64,000 nt of DNA, taken from Aneurinibacillus soli (GTDB lineage: Bacteria > Bacillota > Bacilli > Aneurinibacillales > Aneurinibacillaceae). Both the position numbers and the translations under genes were made by a program. The stretch lies in the NCBI RefSeq assembly GCF_002355375.1, contig NZ_AP017312.1, positions 3,534,501 through 3,598,500 of the forward strand. Direction: 5' to 3'. Below, in pieces: positions 1,477 to 57,715 of the stretch. The stretch's first letter is position 1, and every line of letters begins with the position of its first letter. The notes below the pieces were generated by a model that had not been told where the DNA came from, did no database searches, and saw only the letters and a program-made list of their open reading frames with translations.

Positions 1477-1992
1477 TTGAACCGGTTCTTTCACACAACA
1501 ACCATTTTACTTCTGCTTGCCACAGCCGGACTAACCGGCTGCTCGTCAGAGTCCGCTTCTAAAAGTCAGGACGAACATACAACGCATGACACCGGGCATG
1601 TCGCAGGAGATCTGATCGAGGAAACATCCGGTGCGAACAAGCTCCCCTCATTCCTTTCCAACATGGACCCACAGATTGCCCAGGTATATCAAGCAGTTGG
1701 TTACAACTATCAAACGGTTGAACATATGGCCTGCTACTGCGGCTGCGGCGAGAGCGTTGGCCACAAAAGCAACCGTGACTGCTTCATTCAGGAGATAAAG
1801 CCAAGCGGAGCCATCGTATGGAACTCACACGGAGCAACTTGCAATAACTGTCTTGAGATTGCTGCCGAATCGATCCTTATGAAATCCGAAGGCAAAAATC
1901 TGCGCGAGATTCGCACACATATCGATAATAAATACAAAGAAGGGTATGGTAAACCTACACCTACTCCTCTTCCAAACGAATCCAGTCTATAA
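1477..1992 (+). CDS. PCYCGC-motif lipoprotein
   Basis: Predicted lipoprotein of 171 residues. The signal peptide ends in the lipobox LTGC with Cys22 as the lipidation site, placing the mature protein on the outer face of the cytoplasmic membrane. The core contains ACYCGCG near residues 86-92 followed by a Cys in NRDCFI and a CNNC pair, the spacing of the PCYCGC domain family known from Bacillales. Those cysteines suggest metal or thiol chemistry, but the family has no assigned biochemical role. The start is TTG at 1477, about 14 nt after AAGGAGG, which is a slightly long spacing. It is co-transcribed with the upstream 125-aa gene and ends at a hairpin terminator. Confidence 0.8.
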   Translation: MNRFFHTTTILLLLATAGLTGCSSESASKSQDEHTTHDTGHVAGDLIEETSGANKLPSFLSNMDPQIAQVYQAVGYNYQTVEHMACYCGCGESVGHKSNRDCFIQEIKPSGAIVWNSHGATCNNCLEIAAESILMKSEGKNLREIRTHIDNKYKEGYGKPTPTPLPNESSL

Positions 1993-1994
1993 AT

Positions 1995-2027
1995 AAGAGC
2001 CGTTCCCAGGAAAGGGGTCGGCTCTTT
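1995..2027. terminator. Bidirectional hairpin terminator
   Basis: AAGAGCCG pairs with CGGCTCTT, with T-rich sequence on both sides, between the convergent lipoprotein gene and ytqA. Confidence 0.75.
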
Positions 2028-2030
2028 CGT

Positions 2031-2996
2031 TTAGTATAACAACGATTTGCTGTACTTTTTTCCCTGCCAGCTTTCACGGCGCACAAGTTCACGATCAATC
2101 GCTGTAAGTATCTCCCACTTATTACGACTCCACAGCGGACCAATCAACAGATCGGGTGGACCATCGCCAGTCAACCGGTGAATGATCATATCCGGCGGCA
2201 GCATCTCTAATGTATCCACAATCAAACGCACATACTGATCCTGCTCCAGGAATTCAAGTAGTCCTGCTTCATACTGCTTCACCATCGGAGTTTTGCGCAA
2301 CAGATGGAGCAGATGTAGTTTCACACCCTGCACATCCATATTCGCTACAGCACGCGCCGTTTCAAGCATCATCTCTTCCGTCTCACCCGGCAGACCGTAA
2401 ATAATGTGGGAGCAGACACGAATGTTGTGCTTACGCAGCTTTTCCACAGCTTCATAATAGCACGCCGTATCATGCGCACGGTTAATCAACTCCGACGTTG
2501 ATTCATGAATCGTCTGCAAACCAAGCTCTACCCATAAATATGTTTTCTGATTCAATTCCGCAAGCAGCTCAACTACATCATCTGGCAGACAGTCTGGACG
2601 AGTCGCAATCGAGAGTCCGACTACATCCTCTTGTTCGAGAATGGTCTCATAGCATTCTCTGAGCACCTCAACCGGCGCATACGTGTTGCTGTACGCCTGG
2701 AAATACCCGATGTATTTCGCATCCGGCCATTTACGGTGCTGCCGATTTTTCACTTCATTGAATTGTGTCACCAGATCATCCCGCCGCCAGCCCGCGAAGT
2801 CACCGGAACCACGTGCACTACAGAACGTGCACCCGCCTGTCGTGATTGATCCGTCACGGTTCGGACAGGTAAAGCCTGCGTCTAGCATCACTTTAAATAC
2901 TTTCGTACCAAACGTCTTGCGCAAATAGCTATTTAATGTATGATACCGTTTATCGCCCCAGAGAAGTGGAGCGTTTGTATCCTGCATGCTGTTCAT
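2031..2996 (-). CDS. ytqA: Radical SAM protein, YtqA/YhcC family
   Basis: A 321-residue radical S-adenosylmethionine enzyme of the TIGR01212 (YhcC/YtqA) type. The cluster-binding cysteines are C44, C56 and C59 in TCPNRDGSITTGGCTFC, the long first spacing that marks this subfamily. They should hold a 4Fe-4S cluster that cleaves SAM. Downstream are GYFQAYSNTYAP and the glycine-rich IIYGLPGET strand of the partial TIM barrel. The physiological substrate of the family is not established to my knowledge; a role in RNA or protein modification is plausible. The start ATG follows GGAGGAG. The gene stands alone, between the terminator at 1995 and ytwI. Confidence 0.9.
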   Translation of the reverse strand: MNSMQDTNAPLLWGDKRYHTLNSYLRKTFGTKVFKVMLDAGFTCPNRDGSITTGGCTFCSARGSGDFAGWRRDDLVTQFNEVKNRQHRKWPDAKYIGYFQAYSNTYAPVEVLRECYETILEQEDVVGLSIATRPDCLPDDVVELLAELNQKTYLWVELGLQTIHESTSELINRAHDTACYYEAVEKLRKHNIRVCSHIIYGLPGETEEMMLETARAVANMDVQGVKLHLLHLLRKTPMVKQYEAGLLEFLEQDQYVRLIVDTLEMLPPDMIIHRLTGDGPPDLLIGPLWSRNKWEILTAIDRELVRRESWQGKKYSKSLLY

Positions 2997-3033
2997 TTAT
3001 ACTCTCCTCCTCCATTCAGTATAGCAGTATCGG

Positions 3034-3477
3034 TTACTTCATCCAATCGGCAAACAACGCCAGAATGCCCGCAGCAATAAGCGGGCCAACCGGAACTCCA
3101 CGGAACAGTGCCACTCCGACGATCGTGCCAGCCAAAAGCCCCGTCACAATGTGCGGTTCAGACGTTAGTAGTCCGGTACCCCGTCCACCGAGATACGCGA
3201 CAAAAATCCCTACTGCTACGGCTGCAATTCCAATCATACTCTGGCTTGTAAGCCAGAGATCTGCCAATGTAATTTTACCAAGCACAACCGGCGCCAGTAC
3301 GCCCATCGTCAGCACCGTAATCCCGATCTTTAAGCCATATTGATTGGTCCAGGTCAGCAAAGAACCGGACGGCACAGCTTTCAAAATTATTAGCACCACG
3401 GCTGCGACCCATACTGTTGCGTTCTTCGATAAAAAACCAAGCAGCGCAACCACACCGAGGATGATGTATGCATCCAT
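3034..3477 (-). CDS. ytwI: UPF0756 (DUF441) integral membrane protein YtwI
   Basis: A 147-residue hydrophobic protein with four or five predicted membrane helices and very few charged residues, matching the YtwI/DUF441 family in length and style (opening MDAYIILGVVALLGFLSKN, conserved GGRGTGLL and GVALFRGVPVGPLIAAG segments). The function is not known. A -10-like TATTATAC lies about 30 nt upstream on the minus strand, just after the cshA terminator, so it probably has its own promoter. Confidence 0.88.
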   Translation of the reverse strand: MDAYIILGVVALLGFLSKNATVWVAAVVLIILKAVPSGSLLTWTNQYGLKIGITVLTMGVLAPVVLGKITLADLWLTSQSMIGIAAVAVGIFVAYLGGRGTGLLTSEPHIVTGLLAGTIVGVALFRGVPVGPLIAAGILALFADWMK

Positions 3478-3525
3478 CCCCCCATCTCCCTTCTCTCCGA
3501 TGTATAATACTAGTGTGCAGGAAGG

Positions 3526-3561
3526 AAAAAAGGACAGGCGCCAGATGGCCCTGTCCTTTTT
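3526..3561 (-). terminator. Terminator of cshA
   Basis: GGACAGG pairs with CCTGTCC, with a run of T on the minus-strand 3' side, directly after the cshA stop codon. Confidence 0.8.
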
Positions 3562-3566
3562 GGCTT

Positions 3567-5093
3567 CTATCGATCCTGCTTCGGCTTGCCGCCTGTGCGC
3601 GGACGACGGTCACGGTCACCACCGCTACGATTGCGGTCACCACTGCCACCGCCACGATTACGATCGCCGCCACTGCGTCCGCCACGATCACCGCCACGAT
3701 CACCACCACGTCCACGATTGCCACCACCGTTACCGAATGGCTTGCTGTCGCGGCGCTTGATTTTTTTCGAACGAACCGGCGCTTCCGCTGTCAGCTGAAT
3801 ATCTACATCGCTGTTTGTGCTTTTTGTCAGCATTTTCAGCGCGGCTGCTACCAGATCAATGGAATTGTACGTGTTCAGTACTTCTTCCGCCATGCCCTGG
3901 TAATCATTCAGCCCGCCTTCTTCCATCACTTCTACCAGACGGTCTAGAGCAATACGCTGCTTGCCTTCCATCGCTTCGACCATGCTTGGAATCGCACGAC
4001 GATCCATCTGGCGCTTCGTAACTTTCTCAATGATCTTACGATGATCGGATTCACGCGGTGTTACGAATGTTACTGCGGAACCTGTTTTACCCGCACGTCC
4101 AGTACGACCGATACGGTGTACATAACTCTCCGGGTCCTGCGGAATATCGAAGTTGTATACGTGCGTTACGCCGCTCACATCGAGACCGCGTGCCGCTACG
4201 TCTGTTGCAACAAGCACTTCAAGCTGACCTTCACGGAATTTGCGCATCGCTACGTCGCGCTGACGCTGACTTAGGTCACCGTGGATGCCTTCTGCCATGT
4301 AGCCACGCTTGTTAAGCGCATCATTGAGCTCATCAACCCGGCGCTTTGTACGACCGAATACGATCGCAAGCTCCGGTGAATCAATGTCGAGCAAACGGCA
4401 CAGAACGTCGAACTTCTGGCGTTCCTGCAGCTCCATGTAGTACTGGGAAATGTTTGGCACAGTTACTTCTTTCGCCTGAATCGCCACATGCTGCGGGTTG
4501 CGCAGGAATTTCTCTGTTAAGCGCTTAATTTGCGGCGGCATTGTCGCTGAGAAGAACAAGCTCTGGCGCTCTTCCGGAATCTCCGTGAGGATCGATTCAA
4601 TATCCTCTACGAAGCCCATGTCGAGCATTTCATCTGCCTCGTCAAGTACAACTGTTGCTACGTTTTGCAGACGAATGGTCTTCCGACGAATATGGTCGAG
4701 CAGACGACCCGGTGTTCCGATAATAATATGAGGGCGGTTTTTCAATGCACGAATCTGGCGGCTGATCTCTTGTCCACCGTATACCGGCAATACGCGAACG
4801 CCCGAACGGGAACCAAGCCTGCCTACTTCTTCTGCAACCTGAATCGCCAACTCGCGAGTTGGTGCCATAATAAGTGCCTGAATTACCGGATTTGTCGGAT
4901 CAACCCGTTCAATTACCGGGATTCCGAAGGCTGCTGTTTTACCTGTACCTGTTTGTGCTTGTCCAATAATGTCAGATCCTTGGAGTGCAAGGGGGATCGT
5001 TTTTTCCTGGATTGGTGTTGCTTCCTCAAATCCCATCTCGCTAATGGCGCGTGTCATCTGGGGGCTTAAACCTAATTCATTAAATGTTGCCAA
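3567..5093 (-). CDS. cshA: DEAD-box RNA helicase CshA
   Basis: ATP-dependent RNA helicase of 508 residues, acting in RNA decay, ribosome assembly and cold adaptation. Visible in order: Q motif with Q29, Walker A AQTGTGKT (46-53), PTREL (79-82), DEAD box (151-154), SAT (182-184), and the C-terminal helicase lobe ending in HRIGRTGR (326-333). After about residue 455 comes a low-complexity tail of Gly, Arg, Asp and Ser (repeated GGDR/RGG units), typical of RNA binding and condensate formation in CshA proteins. The length agrees with Bacillus CshA. It is monocistronic, with its own terminator, and divergent from typA. The repetitive tail produces open frames on both strands that are not genes. 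Confidence 0.95.
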
Positions 5094-5243
5094 TCGTATT
5101 ATCTCCTTTTTTGTATCTCACTGTAATATTTTCGTACCGTTTATTTTTCGGACATTCTTACAGTATACTCTTTTTCTACATAAATATATAGCCTAAAATT
5201 TAAGAACTTATACAATCCTCCCCTTATTAGGATAAGAACTCTC

Positions 5244-5277
5244 CACCTTCCACTTTACTATGGAAGGTGCTTTTTTC
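5244..5277 (+). terminator. Hairpin with T-run in front of typA
   Basis: CACCTTCCA (5244-5252) pairs with TGGAAGGTG (5261-5269) and is followed by CTTTTTTC. It is oriented as a plus-strand terminator, yet the only gene upstream (cshA) is divergent. It therefore lies in the typA leader or ends a short untranslated transcript starting in 5100-5240. A TATACT at 5164-5169 is a possible -10. Confidence 0.6.
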
Positions 5278-5378
5278 GTTCAGAGGGGTTGCGGCGGGGT
5301 AGTCGAAAGAAGTATGATGAAAGGGTTGTAACCCCGGAACTAAACGCGGGGGATTTGGAAAGGAGCTTTCACAAGCAT

Positions 5379-7205
5379 ATGAGTGTACGCAAAGACCTCC
5401 GCAATATTGCGATTATCGCGCACGTTGACCACGGGAAAACAACCCTCGTTGATAAAATGCTGATTCAATCCGGAACTTTCCGTTCTAATGAACAAGTTCA
5501 GGAACGCATGATGGACTCAAACGATCTGGAACGCGAGCGTGGCATTACGATTCTGGCCAAAAATACGGCCGTAAACTTCGAAGATTATGTCATTAATATT
5601 ATGGATACACCAGGACACGCCGACTTCGGCGGTGAAGTGGAACGTATTATGAAAATGGTAGACGGAGTGCTGCTCGTTGTAGACGCATTTGAAGGCTGTA
5701 TGCCGCAAACACGTTTCGTGCTGAAAAAAGCGCTCGAGCAAAAAGTAACACCGATTCTTGTTATTAACAAAATCGACCGCGAAAACGCCCGCCCGGCGGA
5801 AGTCGTGGATGAAGTATATGATCTATTCATTGACCTCGATGCGACAGAAGAACAACTGGACTTCCCAGTTATTTATGCATCGGGCATTAACGGTACAGCA
5901 AGCCGCACACCAGAAAAGCAAGATGATGATCTGCGTGCGCTGTTCGAAACCATTGTTGAGTATATGCCGGGACCAGCAGGCGACTTTGAAGCGCCGCTAC
6001 AGTTCCAGGTAACGATGCTTGACTACAACGAATACTTGGGTCGCATCGGGGTAGGCCGCATTCAGCGCGGAACAATCCGCCGTAGCGATACCGTAGCACA
6101 GATGCGCCGTGATGGTTCTGTCAAACAAGTTCGCATCAACAAACTGTTCGGCTTCCTTGGCCTGAAGCGTGTTGAAATCGAAGAAGCAAAAGCAGGCGAT
6201 ATTATCGCCGTTGCAGGCGTAGATGAAATTAACGTTGGGGAAACACTCTCCGATGTGGAAGTACAGGAAGCACTTCCGTTGCTTACAATCGATGAACCGA
6301 CACTGCAGATGTCGTTCCTTGTTAATAACAGTCCATTCGCCGGTCGTGAAGGCAAACACGTAACATCTCGCAAGCTGCGTGATCGTCTGATGGCTGAGCT
6401 TGAAACAGATGTAAGTCTGCGTGTTGATGAAGTCACACCAGAGCAATACACTGTATCAGGACGCGGTGAACTTCACCTGTCCATCCTGGTTGAGAACATG
6501 CGCCGTGAAGGATATGAGCTTCAAGTATCCAAACCGGAAGTTATCATCCGTGAAATTGACGGTGTAAAATCCGAACCGACGGAGCGTCTGACGATTGACG
6601 TTCCAGAAGAATATACGGGTGCTGTTATGGAATCCCTCGGTGCACGTAAAGCGGAAATGGTCAACATGGTGAATAATGGCTTCGGCGCTGTCCGCCTTGA
6701 GTTCATCATTCCATCCCGTGGCCTGATCGGGTACCGGACAGAATTCCTGACCCAAACACGCGGCTATGGCATTCTGAACCACTCATTTGACAGCTACCGT
6801 CCGGTTGTGGCAGGTTCTGTCGGCGGACGCCGTGCCGGTGTACTCGTATCCATGATCGATGGCAAATCCACCATGTACGGCATGCTGGGCGTAGAAGACC
6901 GCGGTCTTCTGTTCGTAAACCCAGGTACAGAAATTTATGAAGGCATGATCGTAGGCGAGCATAATCGTGATAACGATCTCGTTGTAAACATCAGCAAAGA
7001 AAAGCACGCAACCAATGTTCGCTCCGCAACAAAGGACGAAACCGTTAAGCTGAAAACTCCGCGCATTATGTCACTTGAAGAAGCGCTTGAGTACCTCAAT
7101 GACGATGAGTACTGTGAAGTTACGCCAGAATCAATCCGTCTGCGTAAGAAACACCTCAAGAAATCTGACCGTGAACGTGCGGCTAAACAAGCAAAATTCG
7201 TATAA
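5379..7205 (+). CDS. typA: Ribosome-associated translational GTPase TypA/BipA
   Basis: A translation-factor GTPase of the EF-G/LepA class needed for 50S assembly and growth at low temperature or under stress. Starting at 5379 gives 608 residues, the usual family length. An open extension to 5289 lacks a ribosome site, whereas GGAAAGGAG (5357-5365) precedes 5379. Motifs: G1 AHVDHGKT (14-21), RGITI switch I, G3 DTPGH (76-80), G4 NKID (130-133), then domain II, the EF-G-like domains III and V (ISRGELHLS-type region written [11 protein letters not shown]) and the TypA-specific C-terminal domain (ending [12 protein letters not shown]). The gene is followed by a terminator shared with the convergent gene. 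Confidence 0.96.
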
Positions 7206-7690: not shown

Positions 7691-7861
7691 AAAATTTTAT
7701 GTACACCTTTCTTCTAAAAAACCTGCGCCTTTTCCAACGATAATCAACTTTATTCGTTTATTCAACTCATTTCTCTCCAGCCTCATAATTGTTTTCACTG
7801 TAAAAATACGCTATAGTATTCACAATTATCTATTTTTTCAAATGTTTTCAGGAGGGTTATT

Positions 7862-8059
7862 ATGACTGGTACAGTAAAATGGTTTAACGCAGAAAAAGGT
7901 TTCGGATTTATCGAGGTAGAAGGTGGAAGCGACGTATTCGTACACTTCTCCGCTATTCAGCAAGATGGGTATAAGTCACTTGAAGAAGGCCAAACTGTTG
8001 AATTCGAAATCGTTGAAGGCGCTCGCGGTCCACAGGCTGCTAACGTTATTAAACTGTAA
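7862..8059 (+). CDS. Cold shock protein, CspA/CspB family
   Basis: A 65-residue single cold-shock domain that binds single-stranded RNA and DNA and acts as an RNA chaperone. RNP1 is KGFGFIE (residues 12-18) and RNP2 VFVHF (25-29); the opening [15 protein letters not shown] and the length are canonical. GGAGGG precedes the ATG by about 6 nt. The roughly 170 bp upstream are T-rich and could include a structured cold-shock leader, though I cannot delimit one. The transcript terminator is the left end of the palindromic repeat at 8074-8460. Confidence 0.95.
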
Positions 8060-8073
8060 TTATACGTTCTTCG

Positions 8074-8121
8074 AAGAGGCTGTCTCAAGCTGTAACATGG
8101 CAACTGAGACAGCCTCTTTTT
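8074..8121 (+). terminator. Terminator of the cold shock gene (end of repeat A)
   Basis: AAGAGGCTGTCTCA (8074-8087) pairs with TGAGACAGCCTC (8105-8116), followed by TTTTTT. It is the outer end of the palindromic repeat, so the repeat supplies the terminator. Confidence 0.85.
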
Positions 8122-8460
8122 TCTTGGTATAGGTTTTCTCCAAAGTGTGGTGGAGGAGCGGGATCGGGCGGGGCCTCGTCGCTTTGGTACGCTTACGAGG
8201 AAGTATAGACTGTCCGCTCCAGGTGCCAAGCGAACTCGCCCACAAAAGATGCCCGCAATACTTCGGTGAATCAATATCGTAGGTTTTTCTTTGCGGGCGA
8301 GTTCGTCGGGCTCCCGGAGCGGACAGCTACAGCTTCCCTGCAAGCGTACCGAAGCGAACGGCTCCTTCCTTCTCCTACTCCCACCTCCACACGTTATCGA
8401 TTCTACAAAAAAGAGGCCGTCCCCGTTCGCCATGTTCTGGCTTTTAGGACAAACTGTTTT
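8074..8460. repeat. Composite palindromic intergenic repeat, copy A
   Basis: Two arms in inverted orientation fill the whole gap between the cold shock gene and ytpA. Arm 1 (about 8074-8247) starts with a terminator hairpin, GAGGCTGTCTCA to TGAGACAGCCTC plus six T. Arm 2 (about 8288-8460) is its imperfect reverse complement. Matching pairs are GGTACGCTTAC (8186-8196) with GCAAGCGTACC (8340-8350), TGTCCGCTCC (8211-8220) with GGAGCGGACA (8316-8325), and GCGAACTCGCCC (8230-8241) with GGGCGAGTTCG (8295-8305). Arm 1 closely matches the reverse complement of about 55320-55503, and arm 2 the reverse complement of 54777-54950. So the element is a dispersed family. No credible coding frame runs through it. 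Confidence 0.85.
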
Positions 8461-9247
8461 ATATGTGATCCGCAAGCCAGCTAAGCAACTGATCCACTAC
8501 TTTTGTCTTCTCTGGTTCATTAAAAATCTCATGATATAGCCCACTCCATTCCACATAATCAATACACTCCACAGGCTGACTTCGTACCCAGCGGCGCACA
8601 GCCTCCACATCTACAATGCGATCATCGCCTGCCTGCATCAAGAGCGTTGGAATTGCGGGATATTGGTCCGCTTCCTGATAGGCTGCTTCCATAGCAAGAG
8701 AGAGTTGCTTATACCAGCGCACACTTACCCGTGTCGTGATATACGGATCCGTTCCGTAGCGCTCTGCAACCAGCGAATCCCGGCTTACTTCATCCGCCCC
8801 AATCCCGGCAGACAGACGCAGACGGGGAACAACCGCATTCAACATAGAAGCCAGGCCATTAAGCCACGGTGGAATGCTTCGCACAAGCCCCAGACAAGGA
8901 GAGGACAGTACGACTCCAGCTATATCTGGCTGCTTTTCTTCCATATACCGAATCGAAATAAGCCCCCCCATACTGTGCCCAATTAAGAAGACCGGCTTCT
9001 CATATACGTATGCCCGGGCAAGCCATTCGTCAATCGCCCGATAATACTGATGGAAATCATCAATATGTCCACGCCTTCCCTCCGAACGACCAAGCCCCGG
9101 TAAGTCTCCGCCAATTACATGGTATCCCGCCTCATTCAGTCTGCCTGCAAGCCACTCATACCGTGCAAAATACTCTCCTGCTCCATGAACGAGCACAATA
9201 ATCGCATGCGCGTGCGTAGCCATATGACATTCTGTATAAATATTCAT
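8459..9247 (-). CDS. ytpA: YtpA-like alpha/beta hydrolase (lysophospholipase)
   Basis: Serine hydrolase of the monoacylglycerol-lipase/Hydrolase_4 family. It resembles Bacillus subtilis YtpA, the phospholipase linked to bacilysocin formation (shared SVRWYK and GLYHEIFNEPE segments). From the chosen start the protein has 262 residues: oxyanion HGAGEYFARY at 21-30, nucleophile Ser92 in GHSMGG, acid Asp209 in AGDDRIVD, and His239 in LYHEIF. Two starts are possible: ATG 9247 after AAGGGAG, or ATG 9274 whose ribosome site lies inside a hairpin. The family length favours 9247. The gene follows a small conserved gene on the same strand, separated by that hairpin. Confidence 0.88.
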   Translation of the reverse strand: MNIYTECHMATHAHAIIVLVHGAGEYFARYEWLAGRLNEAGYHVIGGDLPGLGRSEGRRGHIDDFHQYYRAIDEWLARAYVYEKPVFLIGHSMGGLISIRYMEEKQPDIAGVVLSSPCLGLVRSIPPWLNGLASMLNAVVPRLRLSAGIGADEVSRDSLVAERYGTDPYITTRVSVRWYKQLSLAMEAAYQEADQYPAIPTLLMQAGDDRIVDVEAVRRWVRSQPVECIDYVEWSGLYHEIFNEPEKTKVVDQLLSWLADHI

Positions 9248-42605: not shown

Positions 42606-42722
42606 GGACCTCTTATCTTTCAGCGTCATTTGCGCTGCTGGAATTAGCACCGTTTGAACCATAATGATTCAAGGTTGCCGAGGCTTCATAGGGCCAGTCC
42701 CTCTGCCTCTCTAGATAAGAGT
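42606..42722 (-). ncRNA. SAM-I (S-box) riboswitch
   Basis: Minus strand reads CTCTTATCTAGAGAGGCAGA, then GGGACTGGCCCTATGAAGCC, then CGGCAACC, the S-box core, and closes with AGATAAGAG (P1). High SAM should favour the terminator downstream and shut off metQ and the acyl-CoA ligase behind it. Confidence 0.96.
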
Positions 42723-54419: not shown

Positions 54420-54764
54420 ATGAGTACGATGCACCCAACCCTTGATTTCCGTATTGATGCCTTCCGTCCGATGATGGACGAACCTACATTCGAGCTATTC
54501 ACAGACTGGTGCGACCGCTACCAGGAAGATACGATGCCATATCCATTCGCTATGTTAAGCTGGATGCTTGATGATTATAGCTACTGGGGCAAGCAGATTG
54601 GCAAAGAGAACCTGTATGAGTACTATTATGACGCACTTGAATTCGATGAACTGTACGCGCTGTTGTACAAAATTCAGGCGTTTACGCTATACGGCTACGG
54701 CAACTGGTCAAACAATGACCGCAAACGCAAAGGGCTGCAGCCGGTTCGATTTAAACAAGTATAA
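54420..54764 (+). CDS. Hypothetical protein (114 aa)
   Basis: No family recognised. AGGAGAGACACG precedes the ATG. The product is acidic and aromatic-rich (YSYWGKQIGKENLYEYYYDALEF), predicted helical and cytoplasmic. It follows the YkhA-like gene closely, and its terminator appears to be the left end of palindromic repeat B. The frame signals and codon use look genuine. Confidence 0.7.
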   Translation: MSTMHPTLDFRIDAFRPMMDEPTFELFTDWCDRYQEDTMPYPFAMLSWMLDDYSYWGKQIGKENLYEYYYDALEFDELYALLYKIQAFTLYGYGNWSNNDRKRKGLQPVRFKQV

Positions 54765-54776
54765 AGGCCGTCAGGA

Positions 54777-55503
54777 AAGAGACTGTCCCAAGCCAGAACA
54801 TGGCGAGAGGGGCAGTTTTTTTGTGGTATCGACAACGTGTGGTGGTGAGGGAGTGAGAGAAGGGAGGAGCCGTTCGTTTCGGTACGCTTGCAGGGAAGTG
54901 GGAACTGTCCGCTCCGGGAGCCCGGCGAACTCGCCCGCAAAGAAAAGCATGTGATGTTGATTCACTGAAGAATTGCGGGCAAAAGCCCATTCACCGTTCT
55001 CCCTCCGCTGAGTAGACGCGTACAGGTACTCTCTTGCTCCTCCCTTCTCCCACTCCCCGCACAACGTTTCCATTTACCAAAAACATGCCACGCCAGAGCG
55101 AATCTGCTCGATCGCCATTGGCTTCTCGAAAGGTAGCTTCCTTGTTTTTTACTTGCATAGCAAAGCTCAGCCTCTTGATATTGCTTAAGGATTTTTATCC
55201 AAACTGTGTCAGGAGCGGGGGCGGGCGGGGCAGCGGAACGCCTGTACGCGATTCCCCTAGCGGAAGGAGCCGAGCGAACGGGATTTTGCCCACAATGCTT
55301 CGATGCAAATTCATCTTGGGCCTTCTTTTGTGGGCGAGTTCGCTTGGCACCTGGAGCGGACAGTTACAACTTCTCCGTAAGCGTACCGAAGTGACGAGGC
55401 CCCGCCCGATCCCGCTCCTCCTCCACATTTTGGAGAAAACCACCACTAAGAAAAAAGAGGCTCCTCTCAGCCGCTTTGTTACAGCTTTTGAGACAGCCTC
55501 CTC
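54777..55503. repeat. Composite palindromic intergenic repeat, copy B
   Basis: About 730 bp filling the gap between the 54420 gene and thiC. Four arms can be seen. 54777-54950 matches arm 2 of copy A (reversed). About 54970-55080 is a shorter inverted arm-2-like piece (CTTCTCCCACTCCCCGCACA). About 55200-55315 is an arm-1-like piece (GGAGCGGGGGCGGGCGGGGC). About 55320-55503 matches arm 1 of copy A (reversed), ending with the GAGACAGCCTC terminator sequence. So B is two palindromic units joined, with about 120 bp of unrelated AT-rich sequence in the middle. No credible gene lies inside. Confidence 0.85.
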
Positions 55504-55525: not shown

Positions 55526-57424
<1,899 letters not shown>

Positions 57425-57439
57425 CTACAGATAACTCAT

Positions 57440-57540
57440 ACGAACTACTTTCCTACGCTGGTATGATCCAGATCAGGTCCCGAGGGTTTAGAAACGTAAG
57501 CGCGTTTCAATCTCAGCCCGAACTCTCGGACACCCCTAGT
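57440..57540 (-). ncRNA. TPP riboswitch (THI box)
   Basis: Minus strand: GGGGTGTCC, then GGGCTGAGATTG, the ACCCTCGGGACCTGATCTGG segment, and ATACCAGCGTAGGAAAGTAG, the full THI-box core. It should terminate thiC transcription when TPP is plentiful. Confidence 0.96.
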
Positions 57541-57715
57541 AGTAAACAGATTATTTTTTGTTTTACTAATGACTACATAAGACACCTTATCACTCTCTAC
57601 TATAAAAATCAATATCGGATGTACGATTAATGTATATCCAGAAGTTGATTGGCTTTGCTTTTCATTTCTTTTGATAAGTCTTTATATTTTTGTTTATGTT
57701 CAACTTTGATTTTCT

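Follow-up and report, generated by a model that had tools for sequence, protein, structure and literature searches.

Introduction

IS1272, a member of the IS1182 family of insertion sequences (IS), inserts at inverted repeats and replaces them without target duplication, and one branch of the published model duplicates the whole stem-loop (PMC5678879). IS1272 and TnSha1 have also been described to insert at hairpins and delete them in part, and RNA-seq mapping confirmed several of these hairpins as terminators (PMC4923244). For bcr1, a smaller non-coding repeat, a title in the reference list of PMC3733652 gives specificity to the B. cereus group.

The locus considered here lies in a window of 64,000 nucleotides, the whole stretch of DNA that was analysed, which belongs to a genome of 4.12 Mb in one contig (G000) and is compared below with the genome of a sister species (G006) and with those of other relatives. 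The window carries two copies, A and B, of a large palindromic element. The original prediction had pointed out that sequence blocks of copy A recur, reverse-complemented, about 46 kb away, and this recurrence is confirmed.

A Palindrome Between Convergent Genes

Copy A is a palindrome of 387 nt (window 8074-8460) located between a cold-shock gene on the plus strand (stop at 8059) and an alpha/beta-hydrolase gene on the minus strand (stop at 8459), and it fills the gap between these convergent genes, as had been predicted. The main inverted arms (8179-8246 and 8290-8357) are 68 nt long with 76% complementarity, the outer arms (8102-8122 and 8407-8427) are 21 nt long with 86% complementarity, and the 14-bp stem of the end hairpin (8074-8087 and 8105-8118) pairs perfectly and is followed by a T-run. 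Both the DNA fold (z -8.65) and the RNA fold (z -13.24) surpass those of dinucleotide shuffles, with 0/100 shuffles as good in either case, and together with the arm pairing they bear out the predicted palindromic architecture.

The plus strand of copy A begins with the terminal stem-loop T1 (8074-8123), an element end of the intrinsic-terminator type with a 14-bp stem, a 17-nt loop and a T-run. The 5' arm of hairpin I follows (8124-8249, plus strand) and includes the core motif TGTCCGCTCCAGGTGCCAAGCGAACTCGCCC at 8211-8241. At 8249/8250 an internal deletion has removed about 340 bp that are present in full-length copies. The 3' arm of hairpin II (8250-8406, plus strand) includes the inverted core motif on the minus strand (8295-8325), and the copy is closed by T2 (8407-8455, minus strand), a degenerate terminal stem-loop that points toward the minus-strand gene. 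T1 has homologous ends in full copies. Each arm had been predicted to open with a terminator-type hairpin, which holds for the clean hairpin and T-run of T1 but not for the degenerate T2 of this copy. A terminator scan of 7860-8760 for loops of 3-8 nt returned 0 terminators, T1 being missed because its loop is 17 nt long.

Open reading frames (ORFs) of up to 172 aa overlap copy A, and none inside copy A or copy B attained the coding score, in agreement with the predicted absence of a coding frame. A match to the cspA thermoregulator family (RF01766; 7705-8121, 80.1 bits against a gathering threshold of 78) spans the cold-shock gene and stops in T1. T1 has probably been swept into this match, whose end would be an artefact of the element hairpin.

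A Full-Length Element in Many Copies

Strong matches to the family are found at many sites of the whole G000 genome, often as two pieces (query 1-190 and 191-411) whose spacing exceeds that in copy A by about 340 bp. The consensus of 31 aligned near-full-length copies measures about 727 bp and comprises T1, hairpin I, a linker, the inverted hairpin II and T2. Mean column identity among these 31 copies is 0.909 in each hairpin, 0.845 in the linker, 0.663 in T1 and 0.718 in T2, and drops to 0.348 in the flanks. Copy A is thus not half of a dispersed family, as first described, but a deletion derivative that has lost the middle of the full-length element, and the description as two arms and half of a family understated the element.

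The second window copy is full-length. Copy B (54776-55500, minus strand) reads T2, hairpin II, linker, hairpin I and T1 on the plus strand, and its neighbours are an ORF at 54420-54764 (plus) and thiC at 55526-57388 (minus). Its hairpin II core (54873-55033, plus; G000:3589373-3589533:+) and hairpin I core (55234-55395, minus; G000:3589734-3589895:-) match the covariance model discussed below with 167.4 and 171.2 bits, respectively. The thiC gene, whose 3' end abuts copy B, is preceded by a TPP riboswitch (57433-57547, minus); a SAM riboswitch is located at 42610-42721 (minus).

The clustered whole-genome matches define 86 loci. The fetched G000 stretches contain 158 hairpin units in 90 bodies, some of which are halves of one copy interrupted by other DNA; 61 bodies have two hairpins, 26 have one, two have three and one has four. 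The family runs to dozens of copies in the genome. A pattern search for the core gave 161 matches in G000, 71 in G006 and between 0 and 4 in each of the other five genomes of the genus, with 0 for the reversed control. The hairpin stretches of G003, which belongs to the genus of the window, and of G008 are identical to those of A. danicus and A. terranovensis contigs, which places the window in Aneurinibacillus. A second subfamily (16 aligned copies) shares the plan of hairpin I, linker and hairpin II, with a different linker and without conserved T ends.

Ends of the T1/T2 type consist of a GAGGCTGTCYCAAAAGC stem-loop and a T-run. Many T ends of the G000 family are made of a stem, an inner stem, a second arm and a T-run, and several copies have an unrelated hairpin or none. 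Two other origins of T were considered. As a target duplication, T1 and T2 should resemble each other within a copy, but their identity is 0.549 within and 0.516 between copies, too small a difference. The idea that T belongs to a separate terminator family, interrupted by the element, was given up because many T1 and T2 share their loop across loci, which favours T as the element end.

Comparison With the Sister Genome

The flanks of copy A align to G006 at 94 and 89%; between them the sister genome carries, instead of the element, 33 bp that include an ordinary terminator hairpin. Ten sites were compared between the two genomes, with the direction of change unpolarised. The ordinary terminator of G006 is missing from G000 at three of them (copy A, L097 and L044) and is retained beside the G000 element at two (L057 and L046). 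A lone T hairpin occupies the site in G006 at four (L072, L110 and the first copies of L106 and L088), and a short form is present there at L050. At L110 the difference is a loss, because a 5-bp piece of the element remains in G006. Copy B is present in G006, minus about 490 bp of its middle.

Eight orthologous pairs, each spanned by a single alignment, show an element identity of 0.80-0.92 (pooled 0.860), with 0.904 in their flanks and 0.686 at four-fold degenerate sites of the flanking genes (2309 sites, seven pairs); the elements therefore change more slowly than four-fold sites. Hairpin pairs between the genomes, mostly non-orthologous, have mean identities of 0.860 and 0.858 in the two main types and 0.711 in the third, and pairs within G000 have 0.876, 0.863 and 0.725. 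The nearest neighbour of a G000 hairpin is also in G000 in 42/50, 27/39 and 36/40 cases. These identities and nearest neighbours suggest that many copies predate the split of the two species and have changed slowly, through constraint or conversion among copies, and that some later spread took place in G000.

In G006, 112 bp of the element (G006:C1:3003355-3003466) are found between the orthologues of ORFs 3567-5093 and 5289-7205 of the window, named helicase-like and GTPase-like by reading, where the window has 37 bp. At L068 of G000 (1934-4381), 2.4 kb in the linker splits one element and encodes two ORFs that resemble, as read from the ORFs alone, a TetR regulator and an MFS transporter; the orthologous place in G006 has 47 bp at that position. 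In L101 of G000 (4760-5640), 0.9 kb inside an element copy carries ORF fragments that look by eye like a broken transposase. Three different copies of G000 (L072 1732-3369, L090 2074-3711 and L110 2045-3682) carry an IS110-family IS of 1638 bp at one and the same position of hairpin II, following GCTTTTCTT, and its transposase, read in L090, has 418 aa and belongs to NF033542. Three more matches (L109, L052 and L059) start or end at this position, a site-specific IS110 target.

Position Relative to Genes

The position of the elements was mapped with home-made gene calls (ORFs with a hexamer score) rather than an annotation. Out of 95 element clusters, 44 have convergent neighbours, 22 and 14 have neighbours of the same direction and 6 have divergent ones, with 9 left undetermined. 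Among the 48 bodies of two or more hairpins whose neighbours are both no more than 500 bp away, 26 occupy a convergent and 1 a divergent position; the window, with 53 pairs of adjacent genes, has 8 and 8 (Fisher, 5e-5 and 0.03, respectively). After removal of the two window copies, the convergent class comprises 24/46 bodies and 6/51 pairs. A gene 3' end is faced by 108 of 146 body sides, and a recognisable T unit is present on 62/108 sides directed toward a 3' end and on 10/38 directed toward a 5' end (p 0.0012). The elements thus lie mostly at 3' ends, with an excess of convergent positions over the window pairs.

This arrangement might be expected of a bidirectional terminator or insulator that the host has domesticated and keeps for stopping convergent transcription from both sides, an explanation compatible with a mobile origin and possible, though we give it well under an even chance. 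Apart from the convergent placement and the orientation of the T units, it draws on the eight orthologous G006 copies, whose pooled identity of 0.86 exceeds the 0.69 of four-fold sites. However, some of the same sites have one small hairpin in G006, termination would not need the ~700 bp of conserved interior, and a preference for insertion at terminators yields the same pattern without selection; termination itself is here predicted from sequence.

Target Sites and Transposase in Relatives

Evidence on the mode of insertion comes from three relatives of a different family from that of the window, of which G204 and G240 are congeneric and share their family with G054, a member of a different genus. 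The ends of their single-hairpin copies are CAGNNTGTAGACAAAG-like repeats. Many of these copies have a terminator hairpin on both sides, which differs between loci. A script delimited 23 candidate units, among which two sites parsed twice (L201/L243 and L202/L256) and a few mis-parsed units (e.g., L202 174-464) were all retained. In 13 of these units an identical stretch of 11-29 bp lies directly outside both ends; the other 10 show no duplication or are mis-parsed. Of the 13 duplicated stretches, 10 fold on themselves as a hairpin, two belong to imperfect hairpin copies and one is an 11-bp palindrome. In the control with mismatched left and right flanks, 3/506 pairs reach 10 bp, and two of these three are one site parsed twice. 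Copies from the other relatives' genomes, inspected by eye, showed no terminator duplication, and none was noticed in G000.

In G204 the ends also point to a transposase. The 16-bp end CAGCCTGTAGACAAAG is common to the MITEs and to an IS of about 1545 bp (16/16 bp), three copies of which are identical across the 1515 bp compared. The transposase, read in one copy, belongs to the IS1182 family (NF033551, 491.8 bits, cut-off 270), and two of the three copies have a terminator hairpin as their visible flank. Among viral contigs, a protein search returned five loci, of which L277 and L278 are identical and L281 is partial; the three distinct full-length elements (L277, L279 and L280) have the same 23-24-bp hairpin on both flanks. 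The duplicated hairpin of L279 may lie inside a gene rather than at a terminator. The duplications in the relatives fit the branch of the model in PMC5678879 in which the whole stem-loop is duplicated, and of the ten sites compared in G000 three are consistent with replacement.

The core is also carried by elements with other ends, for example GGAACTAAAG in G036 and TGTGCTTGAC in G005, and IS1182 mobility alone does not explain a common core with different ends. Hairpin copies of G036 (L205, L206, L232 and L233) have the end repeat GGAACTAAAGA(A)TTTACAC ... TAGTAAATTCTTTGGTTCC, and terminator duplication is not evident in them.

The Hairpin Core

A covariance model of the core of about 160 nt was built from 28 sequences with 28 pairs, and its short calibration makes E-values near 1e-4 rough. 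The model matches 6/15 genomes of the order and, at E 1e-4, 29/299 sampled Bacilli genomes, distributed over 15/118 genera and five families. Four genomes (G000, G005, G006 and G008) supplied sequences for the model, and 25 of the 29 remain without them. All but one of the core matches listed extend over the full model length. Copy numbers are lower bounds, as at most 150 candidates per genome were scored across the order and only 9 across the class. Three genomes of the window's own genus (G001, G002 and G004) gave no match to the model.

The test for covariation gave a strong signal. In 49 matches from 43 loci, 95.4% of the pair cells hold standard pairs, a fraction inflated by the fitting of this alignment (A2) to the model. 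Changes on both sides occur in 26/28 pairs (21.0 in shuffled alignments), cells with double changes number 392 (shuffled mean 113.3), cells counting sequences rather than events, and further pair types number 78 (shuffled 68.9). The signal is lost when the partner is slid by 1-3 columns. A second alignment, A1, has double changes in 15/28 pairs. RNAalifold gave a poor structure on 190 mixed hairpins. With one pair left out, G-U pairs fill 24/1260 cells, A-C 13 and other mismatches 41. On the canonical strand A-C exceeds G-U in all three hairpin groups, only at G-C pairs, and purines also outpace pyrimidines in unpaired columns. Identity of 90% is reached by 12/104 unpaired and 7/56 paired columns, with means of 0.57 and 0.63. 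The scarcity of G-U pairs argues for pairing at the DNA level, or for correction of the palindrome, rather than for RNA.

Long DNA palindromes are corrected by strand switching, which matches their arms to each other. Such templated correction, rather than selection on structure, could account for the covariation, and it is compatible with a mobile element; the few G-U pairs, double changes that are nearly all Watson-Crick and unpaired columns no better conserved than paired ones would all be expected of it. We nevertheless hold it to be rather unlikely, as the arms stay imperfect, the same core motifs recur across families and the orthologues diverge well below four-fold sites.

A multicopy structured non-coding RNA that would act in trans or on the 3' ends of mRNAs is less likely again. 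The covariation would be its natural signature, in the 49 sequences as well as in A1, but the rare G-U pairs, the absence of a matching Rfam family, the structure-fitted alignment and terminators at both ends that would exclude incoming transcription speak against it. At the gathering thresholds of Rfam the window hairpins have no match except the cspA family match that touches T1; at E 0.1 the core has none in 5 loci, and matches of microRNA and snoRNA type that fall short of the gathering score are found next to the core in L034. No published name for the family was found in the literature searched at the level of titles and abstract openings.

Our guess is that the core folds as a DNA hairpin in the service of the element itself. 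As a tentative proposal, to which we assign somewhat better than one chance in three, the ~160-nt core would be one functional structured module, selected across several Bacilli families and spread by mobile elements that differ in their ends. Such a core would then represent an undescribed class of DNA (or RNA) hairpins that ride on terminator-homing transposons and re-equip gene ends with terminators genome-wide.

A Proposed Terminator-Homing Transposable Element

Taken together, the element is probably a non-coding, non-autonomous transposable element of the IS1182 type (MITE) that homes to terminators. In the relatives this reading is well supported, by the terminator duplication and the end common to MITEs and an IS1182 element observed there; for the genome of the window, where the copy number, the location, the empty site and the internal deletions are themselves observed, we infer it as the best available explanation, and the window copies presumably used the same type of transposase. 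There the link to IS1182 consists of the end architecture and the empty sites, the T ends of G000 sharing the layout of the G204 IS end but not its sequence. The replacement of terminators in G000 is not uniform, as they are missing at 3/10 sites and kept beside the element at 2/10.

According to the proposed mechanism, an IS1182-family transposase would recognise the element ends and insert the element at the base of the stem-loop of an intrinsic terminator. This target would then be duplicated on both sides, as seen in the relatives, or, in G000, be replaced or left beside the landing element. The G000 ends, with their stem-loop and T-run, would restore termination at the landing site, which would explain why copies have accumulated at gene 3' ends and between convergent genes. 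The interior holds the conserved ~160-nt hairpin in two inverted copies, and slippage between their similar arms may generate short forms such as copy A.

No match to an IS1182 transposase was obtained in G000, and the copies there are therefore probably immobile at present. An IS with AGAGGCTGTCYCAAAAG ends was not found, and 0/8 matches in viral contigs adjoin an IS1182 protein. Neither T1 against plasmids nor copy B against phages gave a match.

The original prediction had offered three options, a MITE-like element, a structured RNA and a nucleoid or termination element. The first is best supported, by the dispersed copies, the empty site of copy A, the IS-type ends and target duplication of the relatives and the matching IS. 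A termination role is compatible with it because the ends are terminator-like and located at gene ends, and selection at the RNA level would have strong covariation on its side but few G-U pairs. A repeat of the REP/BIME type, with short palindromes mobilised by a RAYT transposase, is very improbable and mostly refuted: its intergenic placement at 3' ends, convergent or unidirectional, agrees with that reported for REPs (PMC3733652) and REPs too are targets of IS (PMC1525189), but the units measure about 230 bp instead of 20-40 bp, the only two Y1 transposases found in G000 each lie beside a TnpB-like ORF with flanks unlike the element, and the relatives have IS1182-type ends with target duplication.

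Relation to Described Systems

The finding connects three things previously seen apart, namely the large palindromic repeats of intergenic regions, the terminators of transcription and the IS1182 transposases that target stem-loops. Whole-terminator duplication, a branch of the model in PMC5678879, is met here at many loci and for the ISs themselves. An element that lands on terminators and brings terminator-like ends would do its host almost no harm, and the many copies in compact genomes would be explained in this way. The covarying core, with its wide distribution and without an Rfam family, is a target for studies of structure and binding. The surprising part is the combination of whole-terminator duplication with a covarying core that recurs in Bacilli and is nameless in Rfam and in the titles and abstract openings searched.

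The closest parallel is provided by the IS1182 family (IS1272 and TnSha1), whose members insert at stem-loops, including terminators, and replace the stem-loop or, in the published model, duplicate it. The 16-bp end of the G204 IS is that of the MITEs, and three distinct IS1182 elements show the duplication. By contrast, the element described here has no transposase and contains a conserved hairpin core, and in G000 its end sequence differs and no autonomous copy was found. Bacterial MITEs such as bcr1, NEMIS, RUP and ERIC are likewise non-coding, dispersed, intergenic and hairpin-forming with inverted ends, but measure 70-300 bp (PMC3733652), whereas this element reaches about 727 bp with two nested hairpins, has a terminator-linked target and carries a core found in five families of the class. 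With REP/BIME repeats it shares the location at 3' ends and between convergent genes, the palindromic structure and the role of IS target, here for the IS110 family; it is, however, ten times larger, and no RAYT partner was found in G000.
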